Below, one piece after another: positions 7,142-63,555 of a stretch of 64,000 bases of DNA. How positions within the stretch are numbered: the stretch's first letter is position 1; every line of letters begins with the position of its first letter. The stretch is from Synechococcus sp. CBW1107 (GTDB lineage: Bacteria; Cyanobacteriota; Cyanobacteriia; PCC-6307; Cyanobiaceae), in assembly GCF_015841355.1 (NCBI RefSeq), contig NZ_CP064908.1, positions 1,860,001 to 1,924,000 of the forward strand, read 5' to 3'. Below the pieces are notes generated by a model. The model ran no database searches. It was not told the origin of the DNA and saw nothing but the letters and a program-made list of their open reading frames with translations. The position numbers and the translations under genes are program-made.

Positions 7142-7754
7142 TGGACGGTTGGGCTGCGGCGAGCGAGGCGGTGAACGCGGCCACGCTCATTTGCCGGCAG
7201 TAGCCCCGGAAGCAGCGCAGGGCCGCCCGGTGGCGCTCGGCTGATTCAGCCATGCAGGCATCGCTCAGGCAGGTCACGAGGTAGCCGCGGTCGGCGGCGT
7301 CCTTGACGGTGTGATCGATGCACTGATCGGTCAGCAGGCCTGCCACCACCAGCTCGGTGATGCCGATGTTGCGCAGCAGGTAATCGAGGCTGGTGGAGTT
7401 GAAGGGGGAGGAGGAACTCTTCGGCAGCACCAGTTCATCGGGCCAGGGAGTGAGGGGCTCGATCACCCGGGCTTCCCAGCTGCCTGGTGCAAAGCCCAGG
7501 CCGGAGCGTTTGTAGTCGAGGCTGCGGTCGCGGCCATCGGCGGTGAGGTTGGCGATCACTGTGTGGATCACCTCCAGCCGGGCCTGGCGGGCGTGCTCCA
7601 GCGCCCGTTGCAGCCGGGGCAGGACGGCCGCCTGAAAGTGCTGATCGAAGCCGGGCGGGCGTGTTGAAAGCGTGGCCGCGGCGTGGCCTGGGGGGGCGGC
7701 GGGGCCGCAGGTGCCGTTCTGGACATCGATCAGGAGCAGGGCCGCGTGAGCCAA
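7128..7754 (-). CDS. isochorismatase-family cysteine hydrolase
   Basis: A 208-residue cysteine hydrolase of the isochorismatase superfamily, which cleaves amides such as nicotinamide, N-carbamoyl compounds or ureidoacrylate. The triad is visible: Asp in LLIDVQNG (residue 10), Lys in LVLPKSSSSPF, and Cys in GLLTDQCIDHTVKDAADRGY. The substrate cannot be told from sequence. The start codon is a TTG at 7754, and no better start is seen. It is divergent from the glutamine synthetase-like gene with almost no space between them. Confidence 0.82.
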   Translation of the reverse strand: MAHAALLLIDVQNGTCGPAAPPGHAAATLSTRPPGFDQHFQAAVLPRLQRALEHARQARLEVIHTVIANLTADGRDRSLDYKRSGLGFAPGSWEARVIEPLTPWPDELVLPKSSSSPFNSTSLDYLLRNIGITELVVAGLLTDQCIDHTVKDAADRGYLVTCLSDACMAESAERHRAALRCFRGYCRQMSVAAFTASLAAAQPSISGG

Positions 7755-7780
7755 GGAGAGAGGTGGCGGCGGCCACCACG

Positions 7781-18510: not shown

Positions 18511-20649
18511 ATGGTAGATACGGCCAGTACCAGTGGTCTCTATATTCTGCTCATCAGTGTGCATGGATTGATTCGAGGGCAGGATCTCGAGCTCGGTCGA
18601 GATGCCGATACGGGGGGACAAACAAAATACGTTGTGGAGCTCGCCAAGGCTCTGTCCAGGCAGGAGGGGGTCGAGCGGGTTGATCTGGTGACACGGCTGG
18701 TCGTCGATGAGGCCATCAGCCCTGATTACAAAGCTCCCGTTGAGAAGCTCTCCGAGAATCTTCAGATCGTCCGGATCAAGGCCGGACCAGATGAGTACAT
18801 ACCGAAGGAGCAGCTCTGGCCACACATGGACAGCTTCGCTGACCATCTCTACACCTGGCTGAGTGAGCAGTCGCGCCTTCCGGACGTCATCCATACCCAC
18901 TATGCCGATGCCGGATATGTAGGAGTCCGTCTGGCGAATCTCACAGGACTGCCACTGGTGCATACAGGCCACTCCCTTGGTCGCGATAAGTACCGTCGCC
19001 TTCTTGCCGTGGGTATGGGCATTGAGCAGATCGAGCAGCGCTATCACATGCAGGCGCGAATCAGCGCTGAGGAAGATACATTGAGTTGTGCTGAATTGGT
19101 GATCACCAGCACCCGCAATGAGATCGAAAGTCAATATGAGCTTTATGATTATTACACTCCTGAGAAGATGGCGGTGATTCCGCCGGGGACTGATCTCGAG
19201 CAGTTCCATCCCCCCATCGAGGGCCAGCCTGCTGAATCGCGGGCGTTTCAGAACACGCTCAACCTGTTTCTGCGTGATCCGGCCAAGCCGATGATCCTGG
19301 CGCTGTCACGGCCGGACGAGCGCAAGAACATTGTTTCGTTGCTTGAGGCCTATGGCCAGACCAAGAGCTTGCAGGAGCTGGCCAATCTTGTGATCGTGGC
19401 CGGCAACCGCGATGACATCCGCGAGCTCAATGATGGGGCTCAGTCGGTGTTGACTGAATTGCTCTGGGTGATTGATGTCTATGAGCTTTACGGAAAAGTA
19501 GCCCTCCCCAAGCATCACTCTGCTGAGAACGTTCCTGAGATCTACCGCCTGGCGGCGGCCTCCAGGGGAGTTTTCGTGAATCCCGCCCTGACCGAGCCTT
19601 TCGGACTCACCCTCCTGGAGGCCGCCGCCAGCGGACTGCCCCTGGTGGCCACCGAGAACGGCGGTCCTGTCGACATCATCGGCAACTGCCGCAACGGCCT
19701 GCTGGTGGATCCGCTCAGCCGTGAGGCCATCGCTGATGCGTTGCTCTCCATTCTTCAGAAGCCGGCGCGTTGGCAGGAGTTCTCTAGCAATGGTCTGCGC
19801 AACATTGCCCGCTTCTACTCCTGGGAGGCTCACGCCAAGGCCTACCTGGCCATGGTGCAGCCGCTGGTCTCCAAGCGAAAGCCGCTGACACAGGTTCCGT
19901 CGACCCACCAATTCAGCAGCTACCGGAATCGGGCGCTGTTCACCGCCCTCGACAACACCCTTCTTGGCGATGCGGAAGCGTTGGAGCAGTTCGCCAAGGT
20001 GGTGCGAACCCATCGCCGCCAGTTCCTCTTCGGCATCGCCACGGGCCGGCGCCTGGATTCCGTGCTGACCATCCTCAAACGCAACAGTATCCCCACGCCC
20101 GATGTGCTGATCACCAGCCTGGGGACGGAGATCTATTACACCTCGGAGTTGTTTGCCGACATCGCCTGGAGCTACCACATTGATCACTCCTGGACACCCC
20201 AGGTGCTGCGTCGAGCCCTGGAATCCCTGCCAGGGCTTTCACCACAGCCCAAGAATGAACAGAGCCGCTTCAAGGTGTCGTATTTTTATGATGCCCAAAT
20301 CGCTCCGCCGCTGGACGAGATTCTGGGTTTGCTCAGGCAACAGGAGCTTTCAGTGAATGCGACGTTGTCGTTCGGCCAGTATCTCGATATCGTTCCTGCG
20401 CGAGCCTCGAAAGGTCAGGCTTTACGTTATGTCGCCAGTCAATACAATATTCCTCTTGACCGCACCTTGGTGACGGGTGGATCGGGAGGAGATGCTGACA
20501 TGCTACGTGGTAATACGCTCGGTGTTGTTGTAGCCAACCGCCACCAGGAAGAGCTCTCCAACCTCAGTGAGAATGAACAGGTTTACTTTGCCAATGGCGC
20601 CCATGCCTGGGGAATTCTTGAAGCGATCCGCCACTATGGTTTTTTCTGA
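18511..20649 (+). CDS. sps: sucrose-phosphate synthase with inactive phosphatase-like domain
   Basis: A 712-residue enzyme making sucrose-6-phosphate from UDP- or ADP-glucose and fructose-6-phosphate. Residues 1 to about 455 are a GT-B glycosyltransferase (ISVHGLIRGQDLELGRDADTG-type N-terminus, THYADAGYVGVRLA, NPALTEPFGLTLLEAAASG). Residues about 470-712 are a sucrose-phosphatase-like HAD domain, but motif I reads FTALDNT: the nucleophile Asp is replaced by Ala479 while Asp481 remains. Motif IV is degenerate (GGSGGDADML). The real phosphatase follows 69 bp downstream. Sucrose serves osmoprotection and as a carbon sink. G+C content is visibly lower than in flanking genes. Confidence 0.94.
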   Translation: MVDTASTSGLYILLISVHGLIRGQDLELGRDADTGGQTKYVVELAKALSRQEGVERVDLVTRLVVDEAISPDYKAPVEKLSENLQIVRIKAGPDEYIPKEQLWPHMDSFADHLYTWLSEQSRLPDVIHTHYADAGYVGVRLANLTGLPLVHTGHSLGRDKYRRLLAVGMGIEQIEQRYHMQARISAEEDTLSCAELVITSTRNEIESQYELYDYYTPEKMAVIPPGTDLEQFHPPIEGQPAESRAFQNTLNLFLRDPAKPMILALSRPDERKNIVSLLEAYGQTKSLQELANLVIVAGNRDDIRELNDGAQSVLTELLWVIDVYELYGKVALPKHHSAENVPEIYRLAAASRGVFVNPALTEPFGLTLLEAAASGLPLVATENGGPVDIIGNCRNGLLVDPLSREAIADALLSILQKPARWQEFSSNGLRNIARFYSWEAHAKAYLAMVQPLVSKRKPLTQVPSTHQFSSYRNRALFTALDNTLLGDAEALEQFAKVVRTHRRQFLFGIATGRRLDSVLTILKRNSIPTPDVLITSLGTEIYYTSELFADIAWSYHIDHSWTPQVLRRALESLPGLSPQPKNEQSRFKVSYFYDAQIAPPLDEILGLLRQQELSVNATLSFGQYLDIVPARASKGQALRYVASQYNIPLDRTLVTGGSGGDADMLRGNTLGVVVANRHQEELSNLSENEQVYFANGAHAWGILEAIRHYGFF

Positions 20650-20718: not shown

Positions 20719-21594
20719 ATGACCCAGCTCCTGATCTGTACCGACCTTGATCGCACCCTTTTGCCCAACGGTGATCTTGAGGAGTCGCCGCACGCCCGTG
20801 AGCGGTTTGCTGCGGTGGCCTCCCGCCCGGAGGTCACGCTGGCCTACGTGTCGGGCCGGGATCTGGCCCTGGTTGAGCAGGCCATCACGGACTTCGGCAT
20901 TCCCAGGCCTGACTGGGTGATCGGCGATGTGGGCAGCAAGCTCTATCAGTTGAACGAGGCGGGTGAAGGGAATGATCAGGGACAAAACAAGGACCCAACC
21001 ACCTGGATCCAGTCCAGTGCCTGGGAGGAGGACATCGCCCTGGACTGGCCTCGACTCGTCAACGAGCAGATCGCTGAGGCCCTCACCTCGATCCATGGCC
21101 TTGTGCTTCAGGAGCCTGCTCGGCAGAGCCGTTACAAGGTGAGTTACTACCTTCCACTCGGTTTCGATCTTGATACGCTTCGGCAGGACATGGGAGCCAG
21201 GCTCCAGGAGTTGGGGGCTCATTCAAGTCTGATCTACAGCGTGGATGAGCAGGCGCAAGTGGGTCTGCTCGATGTCCTGCCTCAGCGGGCCACCAAGCTT
21301 CATGCGGTGGAATTCCTGATGCAGAGCCTGGGCGTGACGACCACCAACACTGTATTTGCGGGTGACAGCGGCAATGACCTGCCGGTTCTGGTGAGTTCAG
21401 TTCCTTCCGTGTTGGTGGCCAATGCCCATCCGGATGTGATTCGAGAGGCTGAAGCCAGTTCACGGGATCGCAGTACAGCAGACTTCTTGTATCTGGCCAA
21501 GGGTAACTTCCTGGGCATGAATGGAAACTACAGCGCTGGGATTCTGGAAGGTCTGGTTCACTATCATCCCGAAACGAAGGACTGGATCACCTGA
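20719..21594 (+). CDS. spp: sucrose-6-phosphate phosphatase
   Basis: A 291-residue HAD-superfamily (Cof-type) phosphatase completing sucrose synthesis. Motif I LLICTDLDRTLLPNG has nucleophile Asp9 and acid/base Asp11. Further motifs are YVSGRDLALV (motif II region), ARQSRYKVSYYLP (Lys motif) and GDSGNDLPVL with Asp216 and Asp220. The complete active site contrasts with the dead domain on the preceding sps. The gene order sps-spp-amylosucrase forms one sucrose block. Confidence 0.94.
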   Translation: MTQLLICTDLDRTLLPNGDLEESPHARERFAAVASRPEVTLAYVSGRDLALVEQAITDFGIPRPDWVIGDVGSKLYQLNEAGEGNDQGQNKDPTTWIQSSAWEEDIALDWPRLVNEQIAEALTSIHGLVLQEPARQSRYKVSYYLPLGFDLDTLRQDMGARLQELGAHSSLIYSVDEQAQVGLLDVLPQRATKLHAVEFLMQSLGVTTTNTVFAGDSGNDLPVLVSSVPSVLVANAHPDVIREAEASSRDRSTADFLYLAKGNFLGMNGNYSAGILEGLVHYHPETKDWIT

Positions 21595-34660: not shown

Positions 34661-36523
34661 ATGATGGATACTCCCAGCAGCACCGCCGATGTGATTCAGG
34701 GGCTGCTTGCGGACCTCCATCGCCGTTATTCCCTGCTGGAGGAAGGGGCTCCGGCCGACTACATCCCGGAGCTGGCCAAAGCGAATCCCTCGGATTTCGG
34801 TATCTGCATCACCACGGTGGATGGACGCATCTATGAGGTGGGCGACACCCGCAAGCCATTCACGATCCAGTCGATCTCCAAGCCGTTTGCTTATGGTCTC
34901 GCCCTGAAGTTGTTCTCGGACGACTACCTGGCCACGAAGGTGGGGGTGGAGCCATCTGGAGATGCCTTCAACGCCATCAGCCTCGATCAGAAGACGGGCC
35001 GTCCCCGCAATCCGATGATCAACGCCGGGGCCATCGCCACCACGGCGCAGATCTGGAATCATGATCCGCATCAGGCCGAAGCCCTGATGCTCGACTTCTT
35101 CAGTGAGCTGGCCGGGCGTCGCCTCAGCATCGACCAGGCGGTGTTCCAGTCCGAGCGTGCCACTGGTCACCGCAACCGGGCGATCGGTCACCTGCTGCGT
35201 AATTTCGGAATCATCGAGGATGATCCGGAAAACGCTCTCGACCTCTATTTCAAGCAGTGCTCGATCACGGTCACCTGCCATGATCTCGCGGTGATGGCCG
35301 CCACCCTGGCCTGTCAGGGTCACAATCCCTTCACCGGATCCAGGCCACTCACGCCAGAGATCACCGTTCGCATGCTGGCCCTGATGGCCACCTGCGGCAC
35401 CTACGACTTTGCCGGTCAGTGGCTCTATGACGTCGGCATGCCGGCCAAGAGTGGCGTGGGTGGTGGTGTGCTCGCGGTGGTGCCCGGCCGGCTCGGGATC
35501 GCCACCTATTCCCCGTCGCTCGATGCGCTCGGCAACAGTGTGCGCGGCATTGCGGTCTGCAATGAGCTCTCCGACAGCCTCGGCCTCAGTCTCTTCAACC
35601 AATATCCCCAGACCAGTTCCACCATCCGGCGCTCTTATAAAGGCTCCCAGCGCCAGTCGCGGCGCTGGCGCGCGGCGGATCAGGCGAAGTTGCTGCAGGA
35701 GCGGCGAGACGCAGTCCGCATCGTGCATACCCAGGGTGTGCTCGATTTCGCCGCGATCGAGAGGCTGCTCTCCGAGCTCAGCGAGATCATGGCTGATGCC
35801 TGGATCCTCGTGCTGGATGTGGCCCATGTCACGGAACTTCCAGAGGAGTCCAGGGGGCTGTTCCTGCATGAACTCACCTCCCTGCGGCGCCGGGGAGTGA
35901 TCGTGCTGATGGCCAGGGCCCGCCATCTCAACCTTCCCCGATCACTCAGCGTGGCCGGGGGAGTCGAGGAGATGCCCCAGTTCGAGCAGCTGGATCAGGC
36001 CCTGGAATGTGCCGAAGACCTGCTGCTGGACTCCACCAAAGACGAGAATCCGAATCCTCCCTTCAGTACGGAGATCGATCAGACGCTCGGCTTTCTGGGC
36101 ATGTTGCAACCCACCCACCGTCAGACCCTGGCCGATCTGATGCAATGCCGCAACTTCGCCAAGGGGGAGTACGTGGTCAGGAAGGGTGATTCCGGCCATG
36201 AGCTTTTTCTGGTTCGGGAGGGGCGTTTCACCATCACCGTCGAACTGCGCGGCAATGACGGGCAGTCCTATGCATCCCGATTGGCCACCTTCGAGCCGGG
36301 GATGTGCTTTGGGGAGATTGCCTTCCTCTCCGGCACACCCCGTACAGCCAATGTCACAGCGGATCTCGACGGCAGCTGCTGGGTGCTCGATCGCCACGAT
36401 TTCGATAACCTGCGCCAGTGGGAGCCCGATGCCGTCACGGAGCTGTTGCTGGCGCTCACCCGTGATCTGGGCACCAAGCTTGCTCTCACCAGCTACCAGC
36501 TCACCTTGATGGAACATCTGTGA
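34661..36523 (+). CDS. glsA: glutaminase-STAS-cNMP-binding fusion
   Basis: A 620-residue three-part protein. Residues about 1-315 are a serine-dependent beta-lactamase-fold glutaminase: the nucleophile Ser71 and Lys74 lie in QSISKPFAYGLALK, and PRNPMINAGAIATTAQI and SGVGGGVLAVVPGRLGIATYSP are present. Residues about 350-445 look like a STAS domain (VHTQGVLDFAAIERLL, WILVLDVAHVTELP). Residues about 475-615 form a cNMP-binding domain with phosphate cassette CFGEIAFLSGTPRTANV, in which the phosphate-contacting Arg is kept. It hydrolyses glutamine to glutamate and ammonia, plausibly under cyclic-nucleotide control. A cyclase gene follows after 13 bp. Confidence 0.9.
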   Translation: MMDTPSSTADVIQGLLADLHRRYSLLEEGAPADYIPELAKANPSDFGICITTVDGRIYEVGDTRKPFTIQSISKPFAYGLALKLFSDDYLATKVGVEPSGDAFNAISLDQKTGRPRNPMINAGAIATTAQIWNHDPHQAEALMLDFFSELAGRRLSIDQAVFQSERATGHRNRAIGHLLRNFGIIEDDPENALDLYFKQCSITVTCHDLAVMAATLACQGHNPFTGSRPLTPEITVRMLALMATCGTYDFAGQWLYDVGMPAKSGVGGGVLAVVPGRLGIATYSPSLDALGNSVRGIAVCNELSDSLGLSLFNQYPQTSSTIRRSYKGSQRQSRRWRAADQAKLLQERRDAVRIVHTQGVLDFAAIERLLSELSEIMADAWILVLDVAHVTELPEESRGLFLHELTSLRRRGVIVLMARARHLNLPRSLSVAGGVEEMPQFEQLDQALECAEDLLLDSTKDENPNPPFSTEIDQTLGFLGMLQPTHRQTLADLMQCRNFAKGEYVVRKGDSGHELFLVREGRFTITVELRGNDGQSYASRLATFEPGMCFGEIAFLSGTPRTANVTADLDGSCWVLDRHDFDNLRQWEPDAVTELLLALTRDLGTKLALTSYQLTLMEHL

Positions 36524-36536
36524 AGCCGTTGCGTCC

Positions 36537-38441
36537 ATGACCCCCCGAGCGATCACCTGGCTGCGGCGCTATGGAGTGTTCGTGGTCTGGGCCGGCGCCT
36601 GTGCCCTCGGCTATGGACTGTTCCCGGACATCTACGAGCATTGGCAGCTGGATCTCTCCTCCCGCACCCAGGAACTGCGCGGACCACGCAAGCCACCCTC
36701 CGGGGTGGTGATCGTCGGCATCGACGACTACAGCCTTGTGCAGGGTCAGAACGCCGACCTCAGCCAGGACAAGGACCTGCGCCGCCTTGCTGACTGGCCC
36801 TGGCCCCGCGCGATCTACGACCGAGTGCTGGATCGTCTCTTCTCAGCCGGTGCCCGGGTGGTGGGCTTCGACCTTCTCTTCGATGCTCCCAGCAGCCACG
36901 GCCCGGAGGATGACGCGGCCCTGGCCGCCGCCCTGCGCCGCCACAGCGGCAAGGTGGTGCTCGGGGCCCAGGTGTTCGAGAGCCGCGGCCGGGTGGGCGG
37001 CCTCACCCTCAGTGCCGCCATGCCCTTCCTCAGCGAGGCTGCCGGTCCCCGCAGCTCGGGGCTGCTCAATGGCCTCCAGGATCCCGATGGCTACATCCGC
37101 CTGCGACCCAGCACCTATGCCGAGCAGCTGCGGCAGTCGGGGATGCTGGATGTGCCGGTGGGCCTCTCCAGCCAGCTGATCGCCAAGGGCCGCGTGGCCG
37201 AGATTCCGCCACCGCCGATCCTCGCCAGCTGGCGGCCTCTGGTGGACCCCTACGGCCCGCCTCGCACCATCCCCACGATCCCGATCTGGGAGGTGCTCGA
37301 GTCGGGCAGCTTCGCCCGTCTCAAGCAACAGGGCACCTTCCGCAACCAGGTGGTGCTGATCGGTCCCACCGCCAGCGTGCTCCAGGACATCCACCGAACG
37401 GCCTTCGCCGGCGCCGAGGGCATGCCCGGCGTCGAGATCCACGCCGCCGAGATCGCCAACCGTCTGGAGGGACGTGCCCTTTACATCCCCCCCAACGCCT
37501 GGTACCTGGCTCCCTTGCTGGGGTTCCTGGTGCTGGCTCTCGGCCTGGCCAGCGCCCGGGCGGAGAAGCCGCAGGTGCGGCTTGGAGCCCTGGCGCTGCT
37601 GGCCGGAGCGATGGTGCTTCTGGGGCTGATCCTGCTGAGCAGCACCGGCGCCGGCATCGGTCTGCTGGGGATCTCCGCTCTCATCCTTGCCACCGGCCTG
37701 GTGAGTGCCGGTGATGCCACGGTGAGGCTGCAATGGAACCGGTTGCGACTGCGCCGGATGCTGGAGCGCTACCTCTCACCGGCGGTGGCGGCCCAGATCG
37801 CCAGCCAGCCTGAGGAGGCCGATGAACTGCTGGGGGGCAAGGTGTCGGAGGTGGTGGTGTTCATCTGCGACGTGCGTGGCTTCACCCAGCGCACCACCAA
37901 GATGAGCAAGGAGGGTAAGGCCACTCAACTGGTGCAACAACTTAATGAATATTTTGCCGTGGTTGTTGATACCCTCCAGCGCAAGGGAGCGATCATCGAT
38001 AAATATATGGGCGATGCTGTGCTCGCTGTCTTCGGGGTGCCCCTGAACCGGGGGATGGAGGTGGAGGTTCAGTCGGCTCTGGAGGCGATTCTGGAACTTC
38101 AGGACCAGATGGAGGCCCTCAACCAGCGCTGGGCCGCCCAGGGAAAGGACCCCTGGGAGCAGGTGATGATCCTGAGCGGCGGGCCTGTGATCAGCGGGAA
38201 CATCGGCTGCGCCTCTCGGATGGATTACACCGTGATCGGTGACACCGTCAACATGGCCAGTCGCCTGGAGGGGGTGGCCAAGCAGTCGGGACGCGACATC
38301 ATCCTCAGCCGTGTGGTGGCTGAGCATGCTTCTCGCGAATGGGACTTGGAGCGGGTGGGTGAGTTCGAGATCCGCGGCCAGGAAGCCCAGGAGGTCTTCA
38401 CGATGAAACCGAGGGAACATTATGAGCGGAGTCAGGGCTAG
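36537..38441 (+). CDS. CHASE2-domain class III adenylate/guanylate cyclase
   Basis: A 634-residue transmembrane cyclase. An N-terminal hydrophobic segment is followed by an extracytoplasmic CHASE2 sensor (about 50-315, including VVIVGIDDYSLVQGQ, DWPWPRAIYDRVLDRLF and FRNQVVLIGPTASVLQDIHRTAF). Three helices (about 320-395) lead to the cyclase domain (about 430-625). Metal-binding residues Asp445 (FICDVRGFT) and Asp493, and base-reading Lys489 (DKYMGDAV), are present, as is the MDYTVIGDTVNMASRLEG block, so it should be active. The Lys plus following features favour adenylate cyclase. It lies 13 bp after the cNMP-binding glutaminase and 30 bp before a FecR gene. Confidence 0.93.
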   Translation: MTPRAITWLRRYGVFVVWAGACALGYGLFPDIYEHWQLDLSSRTQELRGPRKPPSGVVIVGIDDYSLVQGQNADLSQDKDLRRLADWPWPRAIYDRVLDRLFSAGARVVGFDLLFDAPSSHGPEDDAALAAALRRHSGKVVLGAQVFESRGRVGGLTLSAAMPFLSEAAGPRSSGLLNGLQDPDGYIRLRPSTYAEQLRQSGMLDVPVGLSSQLIAKGRVAEIPPPPILASWRPLVDPYGPPRTIPTIPIWEVLESGSFARLKQQGTFRNQVVLIGPTASVLQDIHRTAFAGAEGMPGVEIHAAEIANRLEGRALYIPPNAWYLAPLLGFLVLALGLASARAEKPQVRLGALALLAGAMVLLGLILLSSTGAGIGLLGISALILATGLVSAGDATVRLQWNRLRLRRMLERYLSPAVAAQIASQPEEADELLGGKVSEVVVFICDVRGFTQRTTKMSKEGKATQLVQQLNEYFAVVVDTLQRKGAIIDKYMGDAVLAVFGVPLNRGMEVEVQSALEAILELQDQMEALNQRWAAQGKDPWEQVMILSGGPVISGNIGCASRMDYTVIGDTVNMASRLEGVAKQSGRDIILSRVVAEHASREWDLERVGEFEIRGQEAQEVFTMKPREHYERSQG

Positions 38442-38471
38442 CCTGACCTTGATGGCTCATCTTCAAGCTCC

Positions 38472-39185
38472 ATGAACCACCGCCTGGTTGCAACGTTTGG
38501 CGGACTGCTTCAGGTTGGCCTTCTCCAGGCCGTGTTGATGGTGCCAGCCGCCCCGAGTCATGCGGCGGCCTTCGAGCAGGCCACCATCAAGCGGCTTGTC
38601 GATGGTCGTGAGGTCTACATCGACGGCAAGGCCGCCCGGGTGAATGAAGTGGCCCGTTCCGGCCAGCAGGTGCGCACCGGCAAGAGTCGCGCTGAGCTTC
38701 TGTTTGATGCCCGCGCCACGGGCTTCCTGGGTCGCTCGAGCGTGATCACCCTTGGCAATGCCTGCTTCCGCCTCAGCAAGGGCGCGGTGCTGGTGAGTGG
38801 ACCCCAGAAGGCCTGTCTCGGCACCAAAGTGCTGGGGGTGAAAGGCACCACCTATGTCCTCACCCGCGCCGATGACGGACTGTTCGACTTCGTGGTGCTG
38901 GAGGGGCAGGGGTATGTGGGCCCTGAAGATGGTTACGAGGAGAAGCAGGACTCCACCACCTCCGGTTCAGCAGCGGGTGCGGCCGGGGATCCCTCGGGCA
39001 ACACCACCTATGTCTGCCGCTGTGAAGTGGCCCGCTTCACCGCCGACGGCGAATTCGTCAGCCAGGGCAAGCTCAGCCGCAGCCAGTACCAGGCTCTGCT
39101 GAGCCTGCACACCTCCGGTCAGAGTCAGCTGGGCAAGAGCGCCGAGATCAAGGACGCCTTCTCGGAGTGCTACAGCGGCAGCTGA
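38472..39185 (+). CDS. FecR-domain exported protein, operon partner of cyclase
   Basis: A 237-residue protein with a signal peptide (about 1-33, ending VPAAPSHAAA) and a FecR-like domain (about 40-140): IKRLVDGREVYIDGKAARVNEV, GKSRAELLFDARATGFLGRS, CFRLSKGAVLVSG and LGVKGTTYVLTR. The C-terminus has several Cys (CRCEVARF, ECYSGS). It is exported, so it could sense or modulate the extracytoplasmic CHASE2 part of the cyclase directly upstream. It is a clear paralogue of the FecR protein starting at 62788. Confidence 0.85.
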   Translation: MNHRLVATFGGLLQVGLLQAVLMVPAAPSHAAAFEQATIKRLVDGREVYIDGKAARVNEVARSGQQVRTGKSRAELLFDARATGFLGRSSVITLGNACFRLSKGAVLVSGPQKACLGTKVLGVKGTTYVLTRADDGLFDFVVLEGQGYVGPEDGYEEKQDSTTSGSAAGAAGDPSGNTTYVCRCEVARFTADGEFVSQGKLSRSQYQALLSLHTSGQSQLGKSAEIKDAFSECYSGS

Positions 39186-39199
39186 GCCTTCTCCAGGCC

Positions 39200-40678
39200 T
39201 CAAAGAGTCAGGGTCTCGAACAACTGCTTCATGCGCTTGAGCAGCTGATTCTCATGCTGCTTCACCTTCTCCCTCTCCATCCCTTCCAGCTCGCCGCGGC
39301 GTTTGCTCACCAGGTGGGCCATCCGGTCCATCAGCGGCGGGTTCTCAATCAGCAAGGGACCCAGGCTGGTGCGTGAGACCTCCAGCAGAAGGCATTCCTC
39401 CAGTGCCCGGACGGTGGCACTGCGCCGGTTGCCGGCGAGCATCGACATCTCACCGAAGACATCGCCGGGTTTCAGGCAGGCCACCCGGAAGGGCTCCTCC
39501 TCCTCCTGGTCCTTCAGCACCTCGACCATGCCCTGAACAACCTGGAACAGGGAATCACCTCGGTTGCCCTCGCGCACCACAACTTCCCCCGGCGCAAACC
39601 GCAGGCAGCGGGTGGTCCTGGCCAGCTGGATCATTTCCTCCTCGCTGAGGTCCCCGAAGAGCGGGTTGCGGCTGAGCAGAGCGCGCCGTTGGTCAAGGCC
39701 GCGCTGGTCGGGATGCCCTGCATCAAGGACGGTCCGTTTCTCCCGGAGTTCACGCACCGGATAGGGGACGCTCTGGCCGGTCCGCTCCAGGCTGAACCAG
39801 ATCTGCTCCAGCAGTTCACTGCGCAGGTCGAGCATGTCACCGAGATTGCCCGGGGGCTGGAAAGCGATGATGTCGTAGGTGATGGCACTGTCGGCGAAGG
39901 CCTGCACCCGCACGGCAGGAGAGGGATTCTCCAGCACACGAGGATGTTTATGGAGCACCTCCAGCAGCAAGTGCCGGGCCCTGGAGGGGGGCAGGGTGTA
40001 ATCGAGGCCGATGCTGAAGCGGTTGCCCATCGCACCAAAGGCCACGTAGTTGCGCACCACAACTTCGGTGACCTTGGTGTTCGGCACCACCACCAGTGCA
40101 CCGGTGACATCCTTCAGGCAGGTGTCACGCCAGTTGATCGACACCACCACGCCCAGGGTGCCATCTCCCAGATCGAGGAAATCTCCCACGGAAAAGACAT
40201 CATCGAACTGGAGTTCCAGGCCCGCAAAGAGGTCTTTGAGCGGCTCCTGGGCGGCCAGACCCAGCATGGCGGTGAGCACGGCCGAGGTGGTGACCAGGCT
40301 GACCAGATTGAAGCGGGCCTGCTCCTGCACCACGATCACCGTGGCCACGATGCCTCCACCCAGCATCAACAACTGCAGCAGAATCTGGGCAGGTTCTTTC
40401 CTCAGACGCAGGGCTGCCGGAAGTTCGAGAAACCCCCAGAGAGCGAGGCGGATGCCCAGGTAACTGAACATCAACTCGTCGATGGTGGAGATCCAGGCCC
40501 GGTAGTGAGCGGGCAGGAGGATCAGCGGCAGGGTGCGCACCACCGCCCAGCTCAGAATCGCCAGGGCCGCCAGCTGAATCGGCAGCTTCGGCAGGCGCAG
40601 GCGCCGGATCAGGAGCTGCAGGGGCAGCAGCAGGACCATCGTCACGATGGCTGTGAGCCACACCTCCAGCAACAGCAT
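39200..40678 (-). CDS. MscS-type channel with cNMP-binding domain
   Basis: A 492-residue inner-membrane channel. Four to five hydrophobic helices are followed by the MscS pore and beta domain (about 150-330: TAMLGLAAQEPLKDLFAGL, FSVGDFLDLGDGTLGVVVSINWRDT-type, VVVPNTKVTEVVVRNY). Residues about 345-465 are a cNMP-binding domain with cassette VFGEMSMLAGNRRSATVRAL, retaining Glu and Arg. It is therefore a candidate cyclic-nucleotide-gated mechanosensitive channel, a class known in cyanobacteria. It converges on the FecR gene with 14 bp between. Confidence 0.9.
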   Translation of the reverse strand: MLLLEVWLTAIVTMVLLLPLQLLIRRLRLPKLPIQLAALAILSWAVVRTLPLILLPAHYRAWISTIDELMFSYLGIRLALWGFLELPAALRLRKEPAQILLQLLMLGGGIVATVIVVQEQARFNLVSLVTTSAVLTAMLGLAAQEPLKDLFAGLELQFDDVFSVGDFLDLGDGTLGVVVSINWRDTCLKDVTGALVVVPNTKVTEVVVRNYVAFGAMGNRFSIGLDYTLPPSRARHLLLEVLHKHPRVLENPSPAVRVQAFADSAITYDIIAFQPPGNLGDMLDLRSELLEQIWFSLERTGQSVPYPVRELREKRTVLDAGHPDQRGLDQRRALLSRNPLFGDLSEEEMIQLARTTRCLRFAPGEVVVREGNRGDSLFQVVQGMVEVLKDQEEEEPFRVACLKPGDVFGEMSMLAGNRRSATVRALEECLLLEVSRTSLGPLLIENPPLMDRMAHLVSKRRGELEGMEREKVKQHENQLLKRMKQLFETLTL

Positions 40679-41994: not shown

Positions 41995-42585
41995 TCAGCC
42001 TGTGGAGTCCGGTGTTGGGCCTGAGCGTCCCTGGCCGATCACCAGCAACCGATCCATCGCCTTGCTCAGGCAGTAATTGAGGGGTTTGAACTCCGACTCC
42101 AGCCGGTTCAGTTGATCGGTGTCGCCCCGCTCGCTGGCGGCGATGCCATCGAGCAGCAGGCCGATCACCTCATTGCTGCGCATGCAGCGCTGGCTCACCA
42201 GCGCCAGCATCTCCATGGCCAGGTCGATATCGAAAAGCAGGGTCTTGAGGAAGTTGTCAACGCTCACCTCCACCAGCTCGGCGGGGCCCTCCACAACCCG
42301 CACATCCGCGGAGTGCTGGCCTGAGCCGAACAGACCCATCTCCCCCAGCAATTCCTCGGCCTCGATCACCGCGAGGGTGTGGGGTTCGGGCTCGGTGAGG
42401 CGGATCTGAATCGCCACCTTCCCTTTGGTGAGCAGCATCAGGCTGTCGGCCGGAGCTCCCTGGCTCATCACCAGATCGCCGCTGGCGGCCTGGCGGATCA
42501 CCGGTGCCAGTTCGTCGTGGTGGATGTCCAGCAGCAGTTTCATCCGCTCCCTCACCACCTTCAACTGCGGTTCGTCGCCCCACAT
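41995..42585 (-). CDS. stand-alone cNMP-binding-fold protein
   Basis: A 196-residue protein with a cyclic-nucleotide-binding fold at about 25-140: VIRQAASGDLVMSQGAPADSLMLLTKGKV and the cassette LLGEMGLFGSGQHSADVRVV. The Glu of the cassette is kept but the Arg position reads His, so ligand binding may be altered. No helix-turn-helix is visible, so it is not a CRP-type factor. A good ribosome-binding site (GAGAGGAG) precedes the ATG. It lies 12 bp downstream of speA on the same strand and is likely co-transcribed with it. Confidence 0.8.
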   Translation of the reverse strand: MWGDEPQLKVVRERMKLLLDIHHDELAPVIRQAASGDLVMSQGAPADSLMLLTKGKVAIQIRLTEPEPHTLAVIEAEELLGEMGLFGSGQHSADVRVVEGPAELVEVSVDNFLKTLLFDIDLAMEMLALVSQRCMRSNEVIGLLLDGIAASERGDTDQLNRLESEFKPLNYCLSKAMDRLLVIGQGRSGPTPDSTG

Positions 42586-42597: not shown

Positions 42598-44583
42598 TCA
42601 GGTCTGCAGGTAGGTGCTCTGGCGGAGGCTGTTCTGCAGATGGGCCATCAGCCGGCCGGCGTCGGGCACCGTGAGGGTGCCGCGGTGAATGGCAGCCTCG
42701 CTGGCCACCCGCAGGCGCTCGAGCAGGGTCTCGGGGTCGTGTTCCATCGCTTTGAGCACCTCCGCGTTGCTGTTGCCCCGCACCACATGGTCGACCCGGT
42801 AGCGGCCATTGGCACCCAGACGGATATGGACTGCATTGGTGCTGCCGAACAGGTTGTGCAGGTTGCCCATCACTTCCTGGTAGGCGCCGCCGAGAAACAG
42901 GCCGATCCAGTAGGGCTCACCCTCCCGCAGCTCATGGAGTTCCAGCAGCGGTTTGGCCTGGCCGGGGCCGATGAAGCGGGCCAGCTTGCCGTCGGAATCG
43001 CAGGTGAGATCAGCGAAGCTGCCCAGACGGCTGGGGCGCTCATCGAGCCGGTGGATGGGCATCACCGGGAAGAGCTGATCGATGGCCCAGGTGTCGGGAG
43101 CGGAGCGGAAGATCGAGAGGTTGGCGTAGTAAGTGCCCGCCAGGGAGGCCTGCAGCGCCTTGAGGTCGTCGGGGATGGGGGTGGCCGCGCTCCAGCTCTC
43201 CAGCTGCGTGGCGATCGCCTGGCAGCAGGCCCAGTAGAGCTGCTCGGCCGCTCCCCGCTCGGTGAGGCTGAGGTAGCCCAGCCGGAAGGCGGAGAGGGCG
43301 TCCTGCTTGAACTTGATCGCGTCGTTCCAGCTCTCCTGCAGGTGGTCGACCTGGCCAGGTGCATCGAGGGCGGTGGCCTGGATCGTCGCCAGGGTGTCGC
43401 GCAGGTTGCGCACGATCAGCGGCTCCTCCGCCTGGAGCGCCGGCTCCTCCCCCTGCACCCCACCGGTGCCGAGCACATCAAAGACCAGCACGCTGAAGTG
43501 GCTGGCGATCGCCCGACCGCTCTCGCTCACCAGGGTGGGCAGCGGCACCGAGCGGGGCTCGCAGCATTCCCGCACCGTGGCCACCACGTCGTTGGCGTAG
43601 TTCTGCAGGGAGTAGTTGGTGGAGGCGGCGCTGGCGGTGCGGCTGCCGTCGTAGTCGATCCCCAGGCCACCGCCCACATCGAGATAGCCCATCGGTGCCC
43701 CCAGTTCGGCCAGTTGCACGTAGATCTGACCCGCCTCCTGCAGGGCGTCCTTGAGCACGGCGATGTCGTTGATCTGGCTGCCCACGTGGAAGTGCAGCAG
43801 GCGCAGCTCGCTGAGCAGATCGGCCTGGCGCAGGGCCTCCACCGTGGCCAGCAGATCCGGCACCGACAGCCCGAACTTGGCGCGCTCCCCCACCGAGCTG
43901 CCCCAGCGGCCACTGCTGCGGCTCGAAAGCTTGGCGCGCACACCGATCAGCGGCGCCGCCCCCAGCTCGCGGCTGGCGCTGATGATCCGCCCCACCTCGT
44001 CGGCTTGCTCGATCACCACCACGGGTTGGCGGCCCAGCCGGCGGGCCAGGATCGCCGTTTCGATGTAGCGCTGGTCCTTGTAGCCGTTGCAGATCAGCAG
44101 GGCTTCGGGATCGTCCACCAGGGAGAGGGCGATCAGCAGCTCGGCCTTGCTGCCGGCCTCCAGGCCGAAATGCCACTGGCGGCCGCTCTCCACCAGCTGC
44201 TCCACCACGTGGCGCTGCTGGTTGCATTTCACCGGAAAGACGCCCTGATAGCGGCCGGCGTAGCCGTACTGGGCGATGGCCCGCTCAAAGGCGGCATGGA
44301 GCCGCTCCAGCCGGTCTTCGAGGATGTCGTCGAAGCGGATCAGCAACGGCAGGCTCAGATCCCGCCCCTGCAGGCCCTGCACCAGCTCCACCAGATCCAG
44401 GCAGCCGCCCCGCTCCCCCCGCGGCTGCACCATCACGTGGCCGCGGGCGTTCAGGGTGAAATAGGGATCCCCCCAGCCATCGAGGCCGTAGAGCCGGCTG
44501 CTGTCGGCCAAGCTCCAGGCCGAGGGCGGTGGAGCGCTGGTGCCATCGGCCCGTTCAGGCTTGGGGGGATTGGCGACCACCAT
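42598..44583 (-). CDS. speA: biosynthetic arginine decarboxylase
   Basis: A PLP enzyme of about 661 residues making agmatine from arginine for polyamine synthesis. The PLP Lys lies in QGVFPVKCNQQRHVVEQL, and later blocks are LLHFHVGSQINDI, YLDVGGGLGIDYDGS and LVSESGRAIASHFSVLVFDV. The C-terminal catalytic Cys region is within LGGAYQEVMGNLHNLFGSTNA. The ATG at 44583 is chosen; an in-frame TTG at 44604 would add 7 residues. It appears to head a two-gene operon with the cNMP-binding-fold protein. Confidence 0.95.
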   Translation of the reverse strand: MVVANPPKPERADGTSAPPPSAWSLADSSRLYGLDGWGDPYFTLNARGHVMVQPRGERGGCLDLVELVQGLQGRDLSLPLLIRFDDILEDRLERLHAAFERAIAQYGYAGRYQGVFPVKCNQQRHVVEQLVESGRQWHFGLEAGSKAELLIALSLVDDPEALLICNGYKDQRYIETAILARRLGRQPVVVIEQADEVGRIISASRELGAAPLIGVRAKLSSRSSGRWGSSVGERAKFGLSVPDLLATVEALRQADLLSELRLLHFHVGSQINDIAVLKDALQEAGQIYVQLAELGAPMGYLDVGGGLGIDYDGSRTASAASTNYSLQNYANDVVATVRECCEPRSVPLPTLVSESGRAIASHFSVLVFDVLGTGGVQGEEPALQAEEPLIVRNLRDTLATIQATALDAPGQVDHLQESWNDAIKFKQDALSAFRLGYLSLTERGAAEQLYWACCQAIATQLESWSAATPIPDDLKALQASLAGTYYANLSIFRSAPDTWAIDQLFPVMPIHRLDERPSRLGSFADLTCDSDGKLARFIGPGQAKPLLELHELREGEPYWIGLFLGGAYQEVMGNLHNLFGSTNAVHIRLGANGRYRVDHVVRGNSNAEVLKAMEHDPETLLERLRVASEAAIHRGTLTVPDAGRLMAHLQNSLRQSTYLQT

Positions 44584-44659
44584 CGGAGCCGAATGCGGCG
44601 ACAAGGCTGACGTAGAAATCTAGTGGTTTCGCTTGAGGGGTCCAGCTGGCAACCATGGC

Positions 44660-54756: not shown

Positions 54757-56250
54757 TCAGGGATCGCTCAGCAGTGACGGCATCACCCCATCGCGGTGAT
54801 GGGCGATCCAGGCCTGCTCCAGGAACTCCCAGACATCCCGCCCCTGTTGCCTGAGGGTAGTGGTGACCGTGAGCAGGCGGCTCCGGCAGATCGCACCTTG
54901 GCGGGATTGGACTCCTTGACTGATCTTGCGCTGAATCACCGATTGGCGCAGGGCACGTTCTGCGGCGTTGTTGGTGGGCTCTATTCCCTCGTTCTCCAGG
55001 AAGGTCCACAACCCACCTGTCACCTTCTGGAGCTGCTGGCACGTGCGCACTGTGCTGGCCCAAGGCGTTCGCTCGCCGCGCTGGTAGCCGAGCTCTACTA
55101 CCCGCTGCAGCGTGGTCTCAAAGGTCTGGCGGATCGGCCGGCAGCTTTGCTGCAAGGCGGGCCAGTCAATCTTTCCCTCCTTGTAGCGGTGCCAGTGGCC
55201 AAACAGCTGCTGCTGCAGGCCCAGCAGCTGGGCTCCGAATTCAGCGCTGGCGCCCGGGCGTTCGGCGATGGCCGTCAGGTCGCGGATCAGGTGCGCCCAG
55301 CACAGCTGGCGCTGCTTGGTGGGCAGGTGGTTGTAGGCCGAGAAGCGATCGCTCACCACAATCCCGCCAAAGGCGTTCCCCAGCAGCTCGATGGCAGCGG
55401 TCGTCGATCGACTCAGCCCTTGCACAAATACCGTCACCACGGCGGTGACCATGACCCACTGCCAGCCCCGCTTTCCAGTGGGATTGTTGCCGTCGGCATT
55501 GCCGGTGGGGGCGCCAGTTTCATCTACGTAGGCCACCGGCTGCACGCGGGCAAAAGCAAGGGCCTCCTGCATGGGCTGCTCCAGTGCTGCACTCAAGCGC
55601 TGGCGGACCCGTCCAATCGCGCCGCGGCTCATCTCCACTCCTACCAGCTGCTGGAGCAGGGCCTGGGTCTTGCTGAAACTCAACGGAAAGGCACTGCCCA
55701 GCAGGCCCACCAGTGCACTGAGCCTTGGGCCGTAGTGACTGGCCTCCACATCCGCCGGCAACGAGGCGCAGGTGCTGGTGGAACAGCAGGGGCAGACCAG
55801 GCGATGCAGCCGGTGCTCGATCACCAGCGGGGTAATCGGCGGGATCTCGATCACCTGATGGCGCAGGGGATCGAGATCCTCTCCCTGGAGCAAGGTGCCA
55901 CAGCGGCGGCAGGCATCAGGGTGGTGATCCACCACCTGATCCACCCGCTCGATCGACAGCAGCTCTGGTCCGGATCCGGGATGGCCCTGCTGGCCGCCCC
56001 GCTTGCGGCCACTGCCCTTGCGCCGTTCTGGCGGCTTAAAACCCAGACCATCACTGGAGGGAGGTTTGGATGAGTTGCGAGAGCTGCGTCCGATCCGCTC
56101 ACGCAGGTTTGCCAACTCGGTGGCCAAGGAGGTGAGTTGGCCGCGCAACAGCTCGATCTCCTGCTGCTGGGCGTTGATCAGCGCTCTGACGCTGGCGGGA
56201 GTTTCCAGCCAGTCGGCTTCTGGAATTCCAGCCGGATGTGCGGTCATCAT
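54757..56250 (-). CDS. IS66-family transposase (TnpC)
   Basis: A DDE transposase of about 497 residues. The N-terminus has the leucine-zipper-like segment RALINAQQQEIELLRGQL and the Pro/Arg region RSSRNSSKPPSSDG. A zinc finger is present (CRRCG, CPCCSTSTC). Catalytic residues appear in VAYVDETGAPTGN, IVVSDRFSAYNHLP and EGIEPTNNAAERALRQSV. TnpA and TnpB partners are missing, as in solo-TnpC IS66 members. Terminal inverted repeats could not be identified. The ATG at 56250 is preferred over the TTG at 56286. Confidence 0.88.
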   Translation of the reverse strand: MMTAHPAGIPEADWLETPASVRALINAQQQEIELLRGQLTSLATELANLRERIGRSSRNSSKPPSSDGLGFKPPERRKGSGRKRGGQQGHPGSGPELLSIERVDQVVDHHPDACRRCGTLLQGEDLDPLRHQVIEIPPITPLVIEHRLHRLVCPCCSTSTCASLPADVEASHYGPRLSALVGLLGSAFPLSFSKTQALLQQLVGVEMSRGAIGRVRQRLSAALEQPMQEALAFARVQPVAYVDETGAPTGNADGNNPTGKRGWQWVMVTAVVTVFVQGLSRSTTAAIELLGNAFGGIVVSDRFSAYNHLPTKQRQLCWAHLIRDLTAIAERPGASAEFGAQLLGLQQQLFGHWHRYKEGKIDWPALQQSCRPIRQTFETTLQRVVELGYQRGERTPWASTVRTCQQLQKVTGGLWTFLENEGIEPTNNAAERALRQSVIQRKISQGVQSRQGAICRSRLLTVTTTLRQQGRDVWEFLEQAWIAHHRDGVMPSLLSDP

Positions 56251-56309
56251 AGGCGGGTCTCTACCTGAGATGCAACCGGAAATCAAGCTGTCGTCAAGGG
56301 TTCAGCAGG

Positions 56310-57189: not shown

Positions 57190-58435
57190 GGCACCTCGAA
57201 AAATCGTAAGACCGCTTGATAACGTCCGGATTTAGATTATACTAGGCCATACCGATTACATACTTTCTATGGGCCAGCGAGGTTTCTGGGACGAACAACA
57301 AAGAGTTGCAAAGCTCCAAGAGAAGAAGCCGGTTCTGATCCGTCTCGCAGAATCGATTCCCTGGGAATCTTTCCGCCCTTTGCTTGACAAGGGCTATAGC
57401 CAGGAGCGCAAAAGCAATGCTGGACGCAAGAGAATCGACCCACTGATTCTTTTCAAGATGCTGGTGCTCCAGCAGCTATTTAATTTAAGTGATGAAGAGA
57501 TCGAATTCCAAGTAAATGACCGTCGCTCCTTCGAGGGGTTTGTTGGTCTTGGGGTGATGAATGACATACCAGATGCCACCACAGTCGCCTTCTTCAGAGA
57601 GCGACTGCGCAAGGCGGGAGTTATCGAGGAACTCTTTGAGATGTTTGAGGAATACCTGCGCTCTCAGGGTCTCCAAGCCCGGGGTGGTCAGATCATTGAC
57701 GCGACTCTCGTCCCTGTTCCCAAGCAACGCAATACCCGCGAGGAGAACAAGGAAATCAAAGCCGGAAGGCTGCCAGAGGGCTGGGATGAAAACCTAGACC
57801 GCTTGCAGCAAAAGGATTTAGACGCTCGCTGGACACAAAAGAACGGCCTCAGTTACTACGGTTACAAGAACAGTATTTGCATCGATGTCGACCATGGATT
57901 CATACGCCGATATGCTGTCACTCCTGCCAATATCCACGACAGCCAGATGCTTCCACTTCTGCTTGATCCAGAAAACGAGCATGACTATGTCTGGGCAGAC
58001 TCAGCATATTCCGGCGAATGCTTTGATGCTCTTCTGAGTCTCGGTGGCTTCGAAAGCCTGATCCACGAAAAAGGCGCTCGCAATCATCCGCTTAGCGACG
58101 CAGCCAAGGAATTAAATCGTCTTAAGTCGTCGATCAGAGCTTGTGTCGAGCATGTCTTTGGCTGCATGACCATGTCCATGGGTGGAAAGCTGACAAGAAA
58201 GATTGGGCTAGAAAGGAACGAGGCTTGGTGGGGTCTCAAGAACCTAACATTTAATTTACTGCGCTATCTCCAGCGCTCTGCCCACGTAGTAGTGGTTGCA
58301 TGAGTCACTCATAGAAGTGATACGGTTCAGTGAAACTCGTCAATAGTTGATATAATGCTTTCTTGCGTAGCCGCCTCCATGGCGGCATTTTTATGTCCGC
58401 AAGATTTCCTATTTGTGCTGATTATTCGAGGTGCC
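57190..58435 (+). mobile_element. IS5-family insertion sequence, complete
   Basis: A 1246-bp element with terminal inverted repeats: left end GGCACCTCGAAAAATC, right end (reverse complement) GGCACCTCGAATAATC, 15 of 16 identical. It is flanked by direct repeats CACCAG at 57184-57189 and 58436-58441. Because the base next to each end is G/C, the border could be one base further out with a 4-bp repeat ACCA. It carries one transposase gene and looks intact. Confidence 0.88.
57269..58303 (+). CDS. IS5-family DDE transposase
   Basis: A 344-residue transposase. DDE residues are Asp144 (QIIDATLVPVPK), Asp244 (VWADSAYSGE) and Glu294 (ACVEHVFGCM). The N-terminal domain has RKRIDPLILFKMLVLQQLF and the helix GLGVMNDIPDATTVAFFRER, both typical of IS5. 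The C-terminus has GLERNEAWWGLKNLTFNLLR. No stop or frameshift is seen, so it should be functional. It lies inside the complete element at 57190-58435. Confidence 0.93.
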   Translation: MGQRGFWDEQQRVAKLQEKKPVLIRLAESIPWESFRPLLDKGYSQERKSNAGRKRIDPLILFKMLVLQQLFNLSDEEIEFQVNDRRSFEGFVGLGVMNDIPDATTVAFFRERLRKAGVIEELFEMFEEYLRSQGLQARGGQIIDATLVPVPKQRNTREENKEIKAGRLPEGWDENLDRLQQKDLDARWTQKNGLSYYGYKNSICIDVDHGFIRRYAVTPANIHDSQMLPLLLDPENEHDYVWADSAYSGECFDALLSLGGFESLIHEKGARNHPLSDAAKELNRLKSSIRACVEHVFGCMTMSMGGKLTRKIGLERNEAWWGLKNLTFNLLRYLQRSAHVVVVA

Positions 58436-60124: not shown

Positions 60125-60814
60125 ATGGCCCGCCTCACTCCCCTCGTCCCCCTGGTGCTGAGAGGCACCCTGGCACTCAGCTGTGTTGCTCAGCTGGCGG
60201 AGGGCCTTCCGGCCGGGGCCCGCGGCGGGATGCCTGTCCTGCCCCAGGTGGTGGAGGTGCCCTCCAGGCCCGCTTACGTGACTCCGCCCAGGGGAACCGA
60301 GGCCGCCGCCCGCAGCGGGCAGCTCCTGGAGCCCGCCACCCTGCTGCGCACCCGCACGCCAGGGAGGCTGCAGGTGGCCTTTCCGGATGGACGCCGCTTC
60401 CGCCTGGGGGGAGACGCCCTCGCCCTGATCGGCCGCCGCGAGGTGGAACTCAGCCGCGGCCAGATCATCGGCTGGCTGACCCCGGGGCGGAACGCAGGTC
60501 CGCCCCTGAGGATCAGGACCCGGGTGGGCACCGCCTCGATCTCGGGCACCACGGTGTTCATCGAGGCCAGCCCGGCGCTTCTGCGGATCTTCAGCTGGGA
60601 AGGTCCGGTTGAGGTGGAGGCCCGCAATGGTCAGCGCTTCACCCTCAACACCGGTGAGGAAGTGGTGCATTCCGCCGGTGGCTGGAGTTCACCGCGTCGA
60701 CTGAGCCGTGCGGAGGCGGCTCGCCGACGCCGTGCCAGCTCCCTGCTCAACGGGTTCTCCACACCGATGGAGACCCTGCCCGAACTGGAGCGGCAACTCG
60801 ACCGCCTGCCGTGA
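60125..60814 (+). CDS. FecR-domain exported protein, partner of second cyclase
   Basis: A 229-residue protein from the ATG at 60125 with a signal segment (LVPLVLRGTLALSCVAQLAEG). A FecR-like domain follows (about 70-190): LRTRTPGRLQVAFPDGRRFRLG, VELSRGQIIGWL, IRTRVGTASISGTTVFIEA and FSWEGPVEVEA with RFTLNTGEEVV. This is closer to classical FecR than the other two FecR proteins here. It overlaps the following CHASE2 cyclase by 4 bp (GTGA). Confidence 0.85.
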   Translation: MARLTPLVPLVLRGTLALSCVAQLAEGLPAGARGGMPVLPQVVEVPSRPAYVTPPRGTEAAARSGQLLEPATLLRTRTPGRLQVAFPDGRRFRLGGDALALIGRREVELSRGQIIGWLTPGRNAGPPLRIRTRVGTASISGTTVFIEASPALLRIFSWEGPVEVEARNGQRFTLNTGEEVVHSAGGWSSPRRLSRAEAARRRRASSLLNGFSTPMETLPELERQLDRLP

Positions 60815-62661: not shown

Positions 62662-62787
62662 CGAGCAGGGCAGACGCCGCCACAATGAGGAATCTGCGGG
62701 GCAACCTCCGGCTCACGGCCGCTGGGCTCTGAGCCATCACGCCACCTGTCACGGTTCACGTCGTCAACACTCACGTCGTCAGCACCC

Positions 62788-63555
62788 ATGTCGCCGCTCC
62801 CCCGCCCGGCTGTGGTTGGCTCCCTGCCAGTCCGCCCACAGGCAGCACACCTCCGCCTGCTGCTTCCCGCTGCGCTGCTGGCCTGCCTGGCGATCCCCTT
62901 CCGGCCGGCGCCACTGCGGGCCGCCGAGGCGGCCACGGTGCGGGAGATCCTCGACGGCAAGGAGCTGTTCATCGATGAGCGCCAGGCCAGGGTGAACGAC
63001 AAGGCGGTCACCCCCCAGGAGGTGAGCACCAGGAACAGTCGCGCCCAGCTGGGTTTTCCCTCAGGGGCCGCCGGACGTCTCAACCGCTTTTCCCTGCTCC
63101 GCCTCGGTCAGGATTGCTTCCTGCTCAGCAAGGGTCAGGTGCTGGTCTCCGGGAAACAGGCGGGATGCACCCGCTCGTCGCGGTTGAGTGTGCGCGGCAC
63201 CAACTACCTGCTCGCGGTCGATGAGAGCGGCGGCACCGAGTTGTCCGTCCTCGAAGGCTCGGTTGAGGTGGAGCCTCTCAACGGAGGACAACCTGCCCCC
63301 GGGGGGGCCACCACCGTGAATGCCGGAGAGAAACTGCAGCTCTCACCGGCCGGAGTGGTGCTCACCCTGCTCAAGCTCAGCAATGGCGACTACAACGCGA
63401 TTCTCGGTGGGCCTCTGTTCCAGGGCTTCACCACACCGCTGCCGGCCTTCGGATCCCTCGAGAGCTACCTGCGCTCCACCATGCCCTCGGTGTCGATCCC
63501 CTCGGCGCCGTCAACCCCTTCGATTCCGTCGTTCGCGCTGCCGCGCTTCTTCTGA
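62788..63555 (+). CDS. FecR-domain exported protein, partner of third CHASE2 protein
   Basis: A 255-residue protein with a signal peptide (LLLPAALLACLAIPFRPAPLRAAEA). The FecR-like domain contains VREILDGKELFIDERQARVND, STRNSRAQLGF, CFLLSKGQVLVSG and LSVRGTNYLLAVD, matching the protein at 38472-39185 block by block. The C-terminal 60 residues are Pro/Ser-rich and end in FALPRFF. It lies 77 bp before a CHASE2 gene. Confidence 0.85.
   Translation: MSPLPRPAVVGSLPVRPQAAHLRLLLPAALLACLAIPFRPAPLRAAEAATVREILDGKELFIDERQARVNDKAVTPQEVSTRNSRAQLGFPSGAAGRLNRFSLLRLGQDCFLLSKGQVLVSGKQAGCTRSSRLSVRGTNYLLAVDESGGTELSVLEGSVEVEPLNGGQPAPGGATTVNAGEKLQLSPAGVVLTLLKLSNGDYNAILGGPLFQGFTTPLPAFGSLESYLRSTMPSVSIPSAPSTPSIPSFALPRFF

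Follow-up and report, generated by a model that had tools for sequence, protein, structure and literature searches.

Does the enzyme predicted to make a cyclic nucleotide control the glutaminase encoded beside it? The question is raised by three co-directional genes in the 3.2-Mb genome of a picocyanobacterium, Synechococcus sp. CBW1107. They lie within a stretch of 64,000 nucleotides that was analysed as a whole and is called the window below. GLS (34661-36523, plus strand) encodes a protein of 620 aa with a glutaminase, a STAS and a cyclic nucleotide-binding domain (cNBD). CYA (36537-38441, plus strand) encodes a protein of 634 aa in which a CHASE2 domain is followed by a transmembrane part and a class III cyclase, and FECR (38472-39185, plus strand) a FecR-like protein of 237 aa with a signal peptide. 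We propose, with a probability of about 0.64, that the three form a signalling unit in which the CHASE2 sensor acts, through a cyclic nucleotide and the cNBD, on glutaminase activity.

Organization of the GLS-CYA-FECR locus

A direct check on the window sequence showed the coordinates and reading frames to be exact, and the gaps of 13 bp (GLS-CYA) and 30 bp (CYA-FECR) given by the first-pass annotation were confirmed. Both gap lengths are identical in the remaining intact genomes of the genus. Among its named members are the Synechococcus strains CS-1329, BSA11S and RedBA-s. Within the genus, dN/dS was 0.075-0.11 across the three genes (GLS 0.075-0.108; CYA 0.08-0.11), indicating purifying selection. 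Together with the unchanged gap lengths, these values argue that the trio is not a product of chance. A promoter/terminator scan detected no promoter-like site, and no terminator-like site in the two gaps. The same scan placed one weak terminator-like site inside GLS, which did not rise above shuffled sequence, and the scan is therefore uninformative for this organism.

Convergent to FECR, Pfam identified an MscS-type channel with a C-terminal cNBD (39200-40678, minus strand). This channel adjoins GLS or CYA-FECR in many related genomes. Nearby is the gene of a cNBD-only protein (41995-42585, minus strand; Pfam and sequence), which probably lies outside the operon. Its pocket Arg is replaced by His (GQHSADV), and the domain may no longer bind cyclic nucleotides. 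In other genera (L066, L067, L070-L072) a gene of this kind adjoins the CYA-FECR orthologues.

GLS is a glutaminase with an intact nucleotide pocket

GLS was analysed by Pfam, PDB sequence comparison, a family alignment, AlphaFold, Foldseek and dN/dS. Its glutaminase domain (residues 29-312) scored 393 bits against PF04960 (cut-off 27), and GLS reached 360 bits against TIGR03814 (cut-off 255). Ser71 and Lys74, named as catalytic residues in the first-pass annotation, are invariant in the 19 members of the family alignment, and glutaminases of solved structure have their catalytic Ser/Lys at the same aligned positions. Profiles above curated cut-offs and this pair identify GLS as a glutaminase. 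Residues Y34, N121, E165, N172, Y196, Y248 and V266 align with the residues that we take to form the glutamine site known from human GLS, and are likewise invariant in the 19 relatives.

The STAS profile (residues 347-420, domain about 325-455) scored 21.4 bits, just below its cut-off of 22.6. The AlphaFold model of GLS (pLDDT 82) gave as best Foldseek match Mglu, the salt-tolerant glutaminase of Micrococcus luteus K-3 (3iha), over about 400-450 columns and thus past the glutaminase domain. In the model, the second domain is accordingly of STAS type and the protein Mglu-like. Mglu (PDB 3if5, 3iha, 3agd) is the closest solved structure, best in sequence as well as in fold, and like GLS it consists of a glutaminase domain and a further C-terminal domain. 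However, Mglu (456 aa) stops where GLS goes on into the cNBD. Human and mouse glutaminase C (GLS/GAC), which is under allosteric control, shares the catalytic fold and the Ser/Lys pair with about 40% identity over about 310 residues, but has neither STAS nor cNBD.

The cNBD (PF00027, cNMP_binding, residues 497-585; domain about 480-620) scored 64 bits against a cut-off of 27.5. Its phosphate-binding cassette FGEIAFLSGTPRTANV, residues 550-565 by sequence and numbering (36308-36355, plus strand), contains Glu552, Arg561 and Thr562. The Glu and Arg of the Gly-Glu...Arg signature are therefore present, and the cassette is intact as first described. Thr562 does not discriminate between cAMP and cGMP. 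All pocket residues are intact within the genus, where the domain is under strong purifying selection (dN/dS 0.06-0.13). The best named match to this part of GLS was NCBIfam NF058543, mycobacterial Pat (E 2e-10). Pat is a cAMP-regulated acetyltransferase with a fused cNBD and a model for direct control by a cyclic nucleotide, although it is a different enzyme and its cNBD is N-terminal. In the RedBA-s GLS (L051:9833-11695 / L086) the reading frame of the glutaminase domain is interrupted by one TAG, which is either a nonsense mutation or an artefact of sequencing.

The cyclase and the exported protein

CYA was compared with Pfam profiles and solved cyclases, with a residue check and dN/dS. The CHASE2 (147 bits) and Guanylate_cyc (59.6 bits) profiles were both above cut-off. 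The metal-binding and base-reading residues reported by the first-pass annotation were all found (Asp445 and Asp493; Lys489 and Thr565; Asn572 and Arg576). The profiles, the two metal Asp and the Asn/Arg pair make CYA a CHASE2 class III nucleotide cyclase. Lys489 and Thr565 align with the same residues of Pseudomonas aeruginosa CyaB, and this pair suggests cAMP as the product.

The genome encodes four class III cyclases, three of them of CHASE2 type, and three of the four fall within about 30 kb. Genome and profile searches revealed a second CHASE2 cyclase (60811-62661) that is accompanied by a FecR paralogue of its own (62788-63555), both on the plus strand. This pair (60811-63555) would be an alternative source of messenger, and the other CHASE2 cyclases of the genome could feed GLS too. 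Two CHASE2 cyclases lie about 25 kb downstream of the operon with the FecR paralogue between them, the last past the window end (G000:C1:1923714-1925489).

For FECR, Pfam returned no match of its own even at E 10. Its assignment was transitive, through the paralogue at 62788-63555, which matched FecR at 8e-5 with 23.4 bits (cut-off 24), and through a G-V-[RK]-G-T motif. A FecR profile from which cyanobacterial members had been left out reached FECR at E 0.5 only, and the structure model (pLDDT 48) was too poor for use. Membership of the FecR family (PF04773) thus failed by Pfam, by the independent profile and by structure. Of the exported FecR protein of the first-pass annotation, the signal peptide was retained, as judged by eye, and the FecR identity was reduced to a sequence-based likeness. 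FECR adjoins the orthologous cyclase on its 3' side at every locus where that cyclase was found. In other genera (L066, L067, L068, L070-L072) the FECR orthologue downstream of CYA is longer (600-740 aa); its extra C-terminal part, about 400 aa in length, gave no convincing match to Pfam.

Distribution within cyanobacteria

Conservation of the locus was surveyed in 201 genomes of the family, and 40 loci were examined in detail. In these loci the interval between alaS and speA is a syntenic backbone whose cargo varies: GLS, CYA-FECR, the MscS-cNBD channel and cNBD genes come and go separately. Seven of nine genomes of the window's genus have the exact order GLS-CYA-FECR with the same spacing, and within cyanobacteria it occurs only there. 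The three-gene adjacency of the first-pass annotation therefore held in the genus and not outside it; conservation of the order across cyanobacteria was rejected. In the other two genomes GLS was kept and the cyclase-FecR pair lost, with cyclase fragments only in one (G035, L048) and none in the other (G142, L045). Genus g31 has CYA-FECR beside the MscS-cNBD channel without GLS (L064, L065), and at one of its loci (L059) alaS stands between CYA-FECR and GLS. In g10 and g48, GLS lies beside the channel without CYA (L052-L055), and in other cyanobacterial genera it stands alone. Since GLS and the cyclase are also found apart, the operon is not an obligate unit. Their separate inheritance marks it as two mobile parts brought together in one lineage. 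The losses in G035 and G142, together with the four genomic cyclases, rule out an exclusive pairing of one cyclase with one glutaminase, and the description of CYA as the glutaminase's own cyclase was too strong in this respect.

The same survey gives weight to a different account, namely that cyclic nucleotide genes merely pool between alaS and speA. GLS would then answer to the general cAMP level, the neighbouring cyclase would have no special role and co-transcription would be a by-product of gene shuffling. Besides the separately moving cargo and the survival of GLS in two relatives after cyclase loss, the three other cyclases of the genome fit this account, as does the clustering of cyclic nucleotide genes, with four in 8 kb and six in 30 kb (P ≤5e-5). 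We nevertheless consider it unlikely, because it leaves unexplained the pairing in unrelated contexts (Verrucomicrobiota, Pseudomonadota, Myxococcota) and the absence of cyclases around the sampled glutaminases that lack the cNBD.

Recurrent linkage beyond cyanobacteria

The strongest part of the case for the proposed signalling unit is its recurrence across phyla. Relatives with the GLS-STAS-cNBD architecture are encoded in at least 584 candidate stretches. The best 80 of these, which are not a random draw, come from Cyanobacteriota, Verrucomicrobiota, Planctomycetota, Pseudomonadota, Myxococcota and Actinomycetota. Of 50 non-cyanobacterial genomes, 12 have a cyclase or CHASE2 gene no more than 5 kb from GLS, compared with 0.50 expected from the cyclase number and genome size of each (P~3e-14, assuming random gene placement and independent species). 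At 1 kb, 8 of the same genomes are linked (0.11 expected). Contig ends conceal some neighbouring genes, and in L113 and L150 the contig breaks off within CHASE2 or just past it, which leaves the output domain out of view. Three of 18 further loci from separate searches were also linked (L165, L168, L174). A FecR gene was found within 5 kb of GLS in 10 of the 50 genomes (0.32 expected), and above the Pfam cut-off in L113, L121, L148 and L154. Thus the module of glutaminase, cyclase and FecR recurs in unrelated genomes above chance, although its exact order is not kept outside the genus. FecR genes also lie within 3.5 kb of 22 of 150 listed cyclases independently of GLS, and so the CHASE2 cyclase and FecR constitute a broader unit.

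Outside cyanobacteria the linked cyclases are mostly of CHASE2 type and belong to Verrucomicrobiota, Pseudomonadota and Myxococcota. At least six gene arrangements occur, including cyclase-GLS, GLS-cyclase, convergent, divergent and FecR-cyclase-GLS. With GLS pointing rightward, L101 reads FecR (reverse), cyclase, GLS and L165 FecR, cyclase, GLS; L154 and L168 read GLS, FecR, cyclase; L174 reads GLS, cyclase and L102 GLS followed by two cyclases. A convergent cyclase follows GLS in L116, L120, L148 and L060, and in L130 the two are divergent. L121 and L122 read OmpA (reverse), FecR (reverse), cyclase, GLS, FecR (reverse), SpoIIE-cNBD-HATPase (reverse). The GLS tree requires the linked state to have changed at least 17 times on its starred branches.

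Linkage follows the cNBD. In similar windows, none of 40 cNBD-less glutaminases had a cyclase nearby, compared with 26 of the 120 that carry the domain (Fisher P 0.0004, with species again treated as independent). In cyanobacteria alone the counts were 0 of 31 and 11 of 29 (P 0.0001), and outside them, where the control is small, 0 of 9 and 15 of 91 (P 0.35). The remaining 94 of the 120 have no cyclase within 5 kb in the DNA at hand. The idea that the producer of a messenger and its effector go together is therefore supported in its core, by the recurrent pairing in other phyla and its absence beside the cNBD-less glutaminases sampled; the operon in its exact form occurs in one genus only. Because GLS relatives in several distant phyla stand beside cyclase sensors far above chance, a second messenger probably controls the breakdown of glutamine directly. 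Another cyanobacterial glutaminase of about 580 aa (L218:5431-7155; similar in L217 and L219-L221) has no cNBD and no cyclase nearby; by eye, its extra N- and C-terminal regions are EF-hand-like and TerB-like.

The pocket Arg is present in 101 of the 120 family members. All 26 cyclase-linked members keep it and 19 of the 94 unlinked ones lack it (Fisher P 0.012, confounded by ancestry, as one Nocardia/Rhodococcus clade dominates). Too few independent pairs on the tree were informative for the co-variation of linkage and Arg. Phe replaces Arg in 13 of the 19, mainly in Nocardia and Rhodococcus (L123, L124, L128, L132, L136, L139, L142, L143, L147, L151, L158, L162, L163), and in this clade the nucleotide pocket appears to be lost. 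Several members without the Arg retain the domain, so that the fold alone is of some use. This would suit a cNBD that serves assembly only, through dimer or tetramer contacts and with no nucleotide bound, in a constitutive glutaminase whose operon is metabolic housekeeping. Such a role is highly improbable for GLS, given the intact pocket here and in every cyclase-linked member, and the recurrent cyclase linkage.

The STAS domain could instead be the main input, through a partner-switching HATPase/SpoIIE kinase/phosphatase system or a small molecule, with the cNBD secondary or degenerate. In four loci (L121:11369-13009, L122:10796-12580, L131:7193-8824, L178:2325-7166), SpoIIE genes, mostly with HATPase and some with cNBD or STAS, stand no farther than about 2.6 kb from GLS, which suggests the STAS of the glutaminase as a target of partner switching. 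Moreover, the pocket was lost and STAS kept in the Nocardia/Rhodococcus clade and in some cyanobacteria. However, no SpoIIE/HATPase gene was found beside GLS in the window's genus or at most loci, and in the genus the cNBD is strongly constrained and its pocket intact. We regard this explanation as quite improbable here.

The base-reading residues of the linked cyclases vary (K/T, K/S, R/R, E/S, K/A), which makes a single messenger for all of them doubtful; the messenger may differ between lineages.

A model for cyclic nucleotide control of glutaminase

In the model that we favour, the CHASE2 membrane sensor would read a condition of the envelope or periplasm, probably helped by the secreted FecR-like protein. 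CYA would then make a cyclic nucleotide, probably cAMP, which would bind the C-terminal cNBD of GLS, and the STAS-cNBD tail would set glutaminase activity and hence how much glutamate and ammonia is released. The nucleotide may either activate or inhibit the enzyme, and the stimulus may be osmotic stress or acid, as the first-pass annotation supposed, or envelope damage. The MscS-cNBD channel may be a second effector of the same messenger, and its convergent position is at most suggestive of an osmotic theme. The link between GLS and the cyclase would be non-exclusive, and the pairing has formed or been retained many times in other phyla. More tentatively, there may be a widespread and so far undescribed bacterial class of second-messenger-gated glutaminases, in which envelope-sensing CHASE2-FecR cyclases act directly on the cNBD, STAS offers a possible SpoIIE/HATPase input, and MscS channels are co-targets in cyanobacteria.

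Glutamine synthetase remakes glutamine continuously, and an unregulated glutaminase would waste ATP; a gate on the enzyme therefore makes physiological sense. If the model is right, it provides a rapid switch, acting after translation, between glutamine on one side and glutamate plus ammonia on the other, at the main node of nitrogen metabolism, and explains how a futile cycle is avoided in cells with very active glutamine synthesis. To our knowledge, few bacterial enzymes are directly switched by cAMP or cGMP, most known effectors being transcription factors, and the signal and output of CHASE2-FecR sensors are mostly unknown; such sensors would gain a measurable enzymatic read-out. In the open-access literature we found no paper on a cyclic nucleotide-regulated glutaminase or on a glutaminase with a cyclic nucleotide-binding domain. 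The pairing of CHASE2 with an exported FecR protein is shared with the Burkholderia BiofilmReg operon, which has no glutaminase; there the CHASE2 output is a histidine kinase and the FecR-domain protein carries LysM (PMC5192318). The architecture of bCNG channels (MscS fold and cNBD) is matched by the gene at 39200-40678, which encodes a putative channel and is only a neighbour here.

Other genes of the window

The window also encodes a glutamine-synthetase-like enzyme (7661-9184) that is nearest to gamma-glutamylputrescine synthetase, a sucrose-phosphate synthase (18511-20649), a sucrose-phosphatase-like protein (20719-21594) and an arginine decarboxylase (42598-44604). Transposase genes of IS66 type and DDE_Tnp_1/DUF772 type (54757-56286, minus strand, and 57269-58303, plus strand) separate the operon from the cyclase pair downstream.
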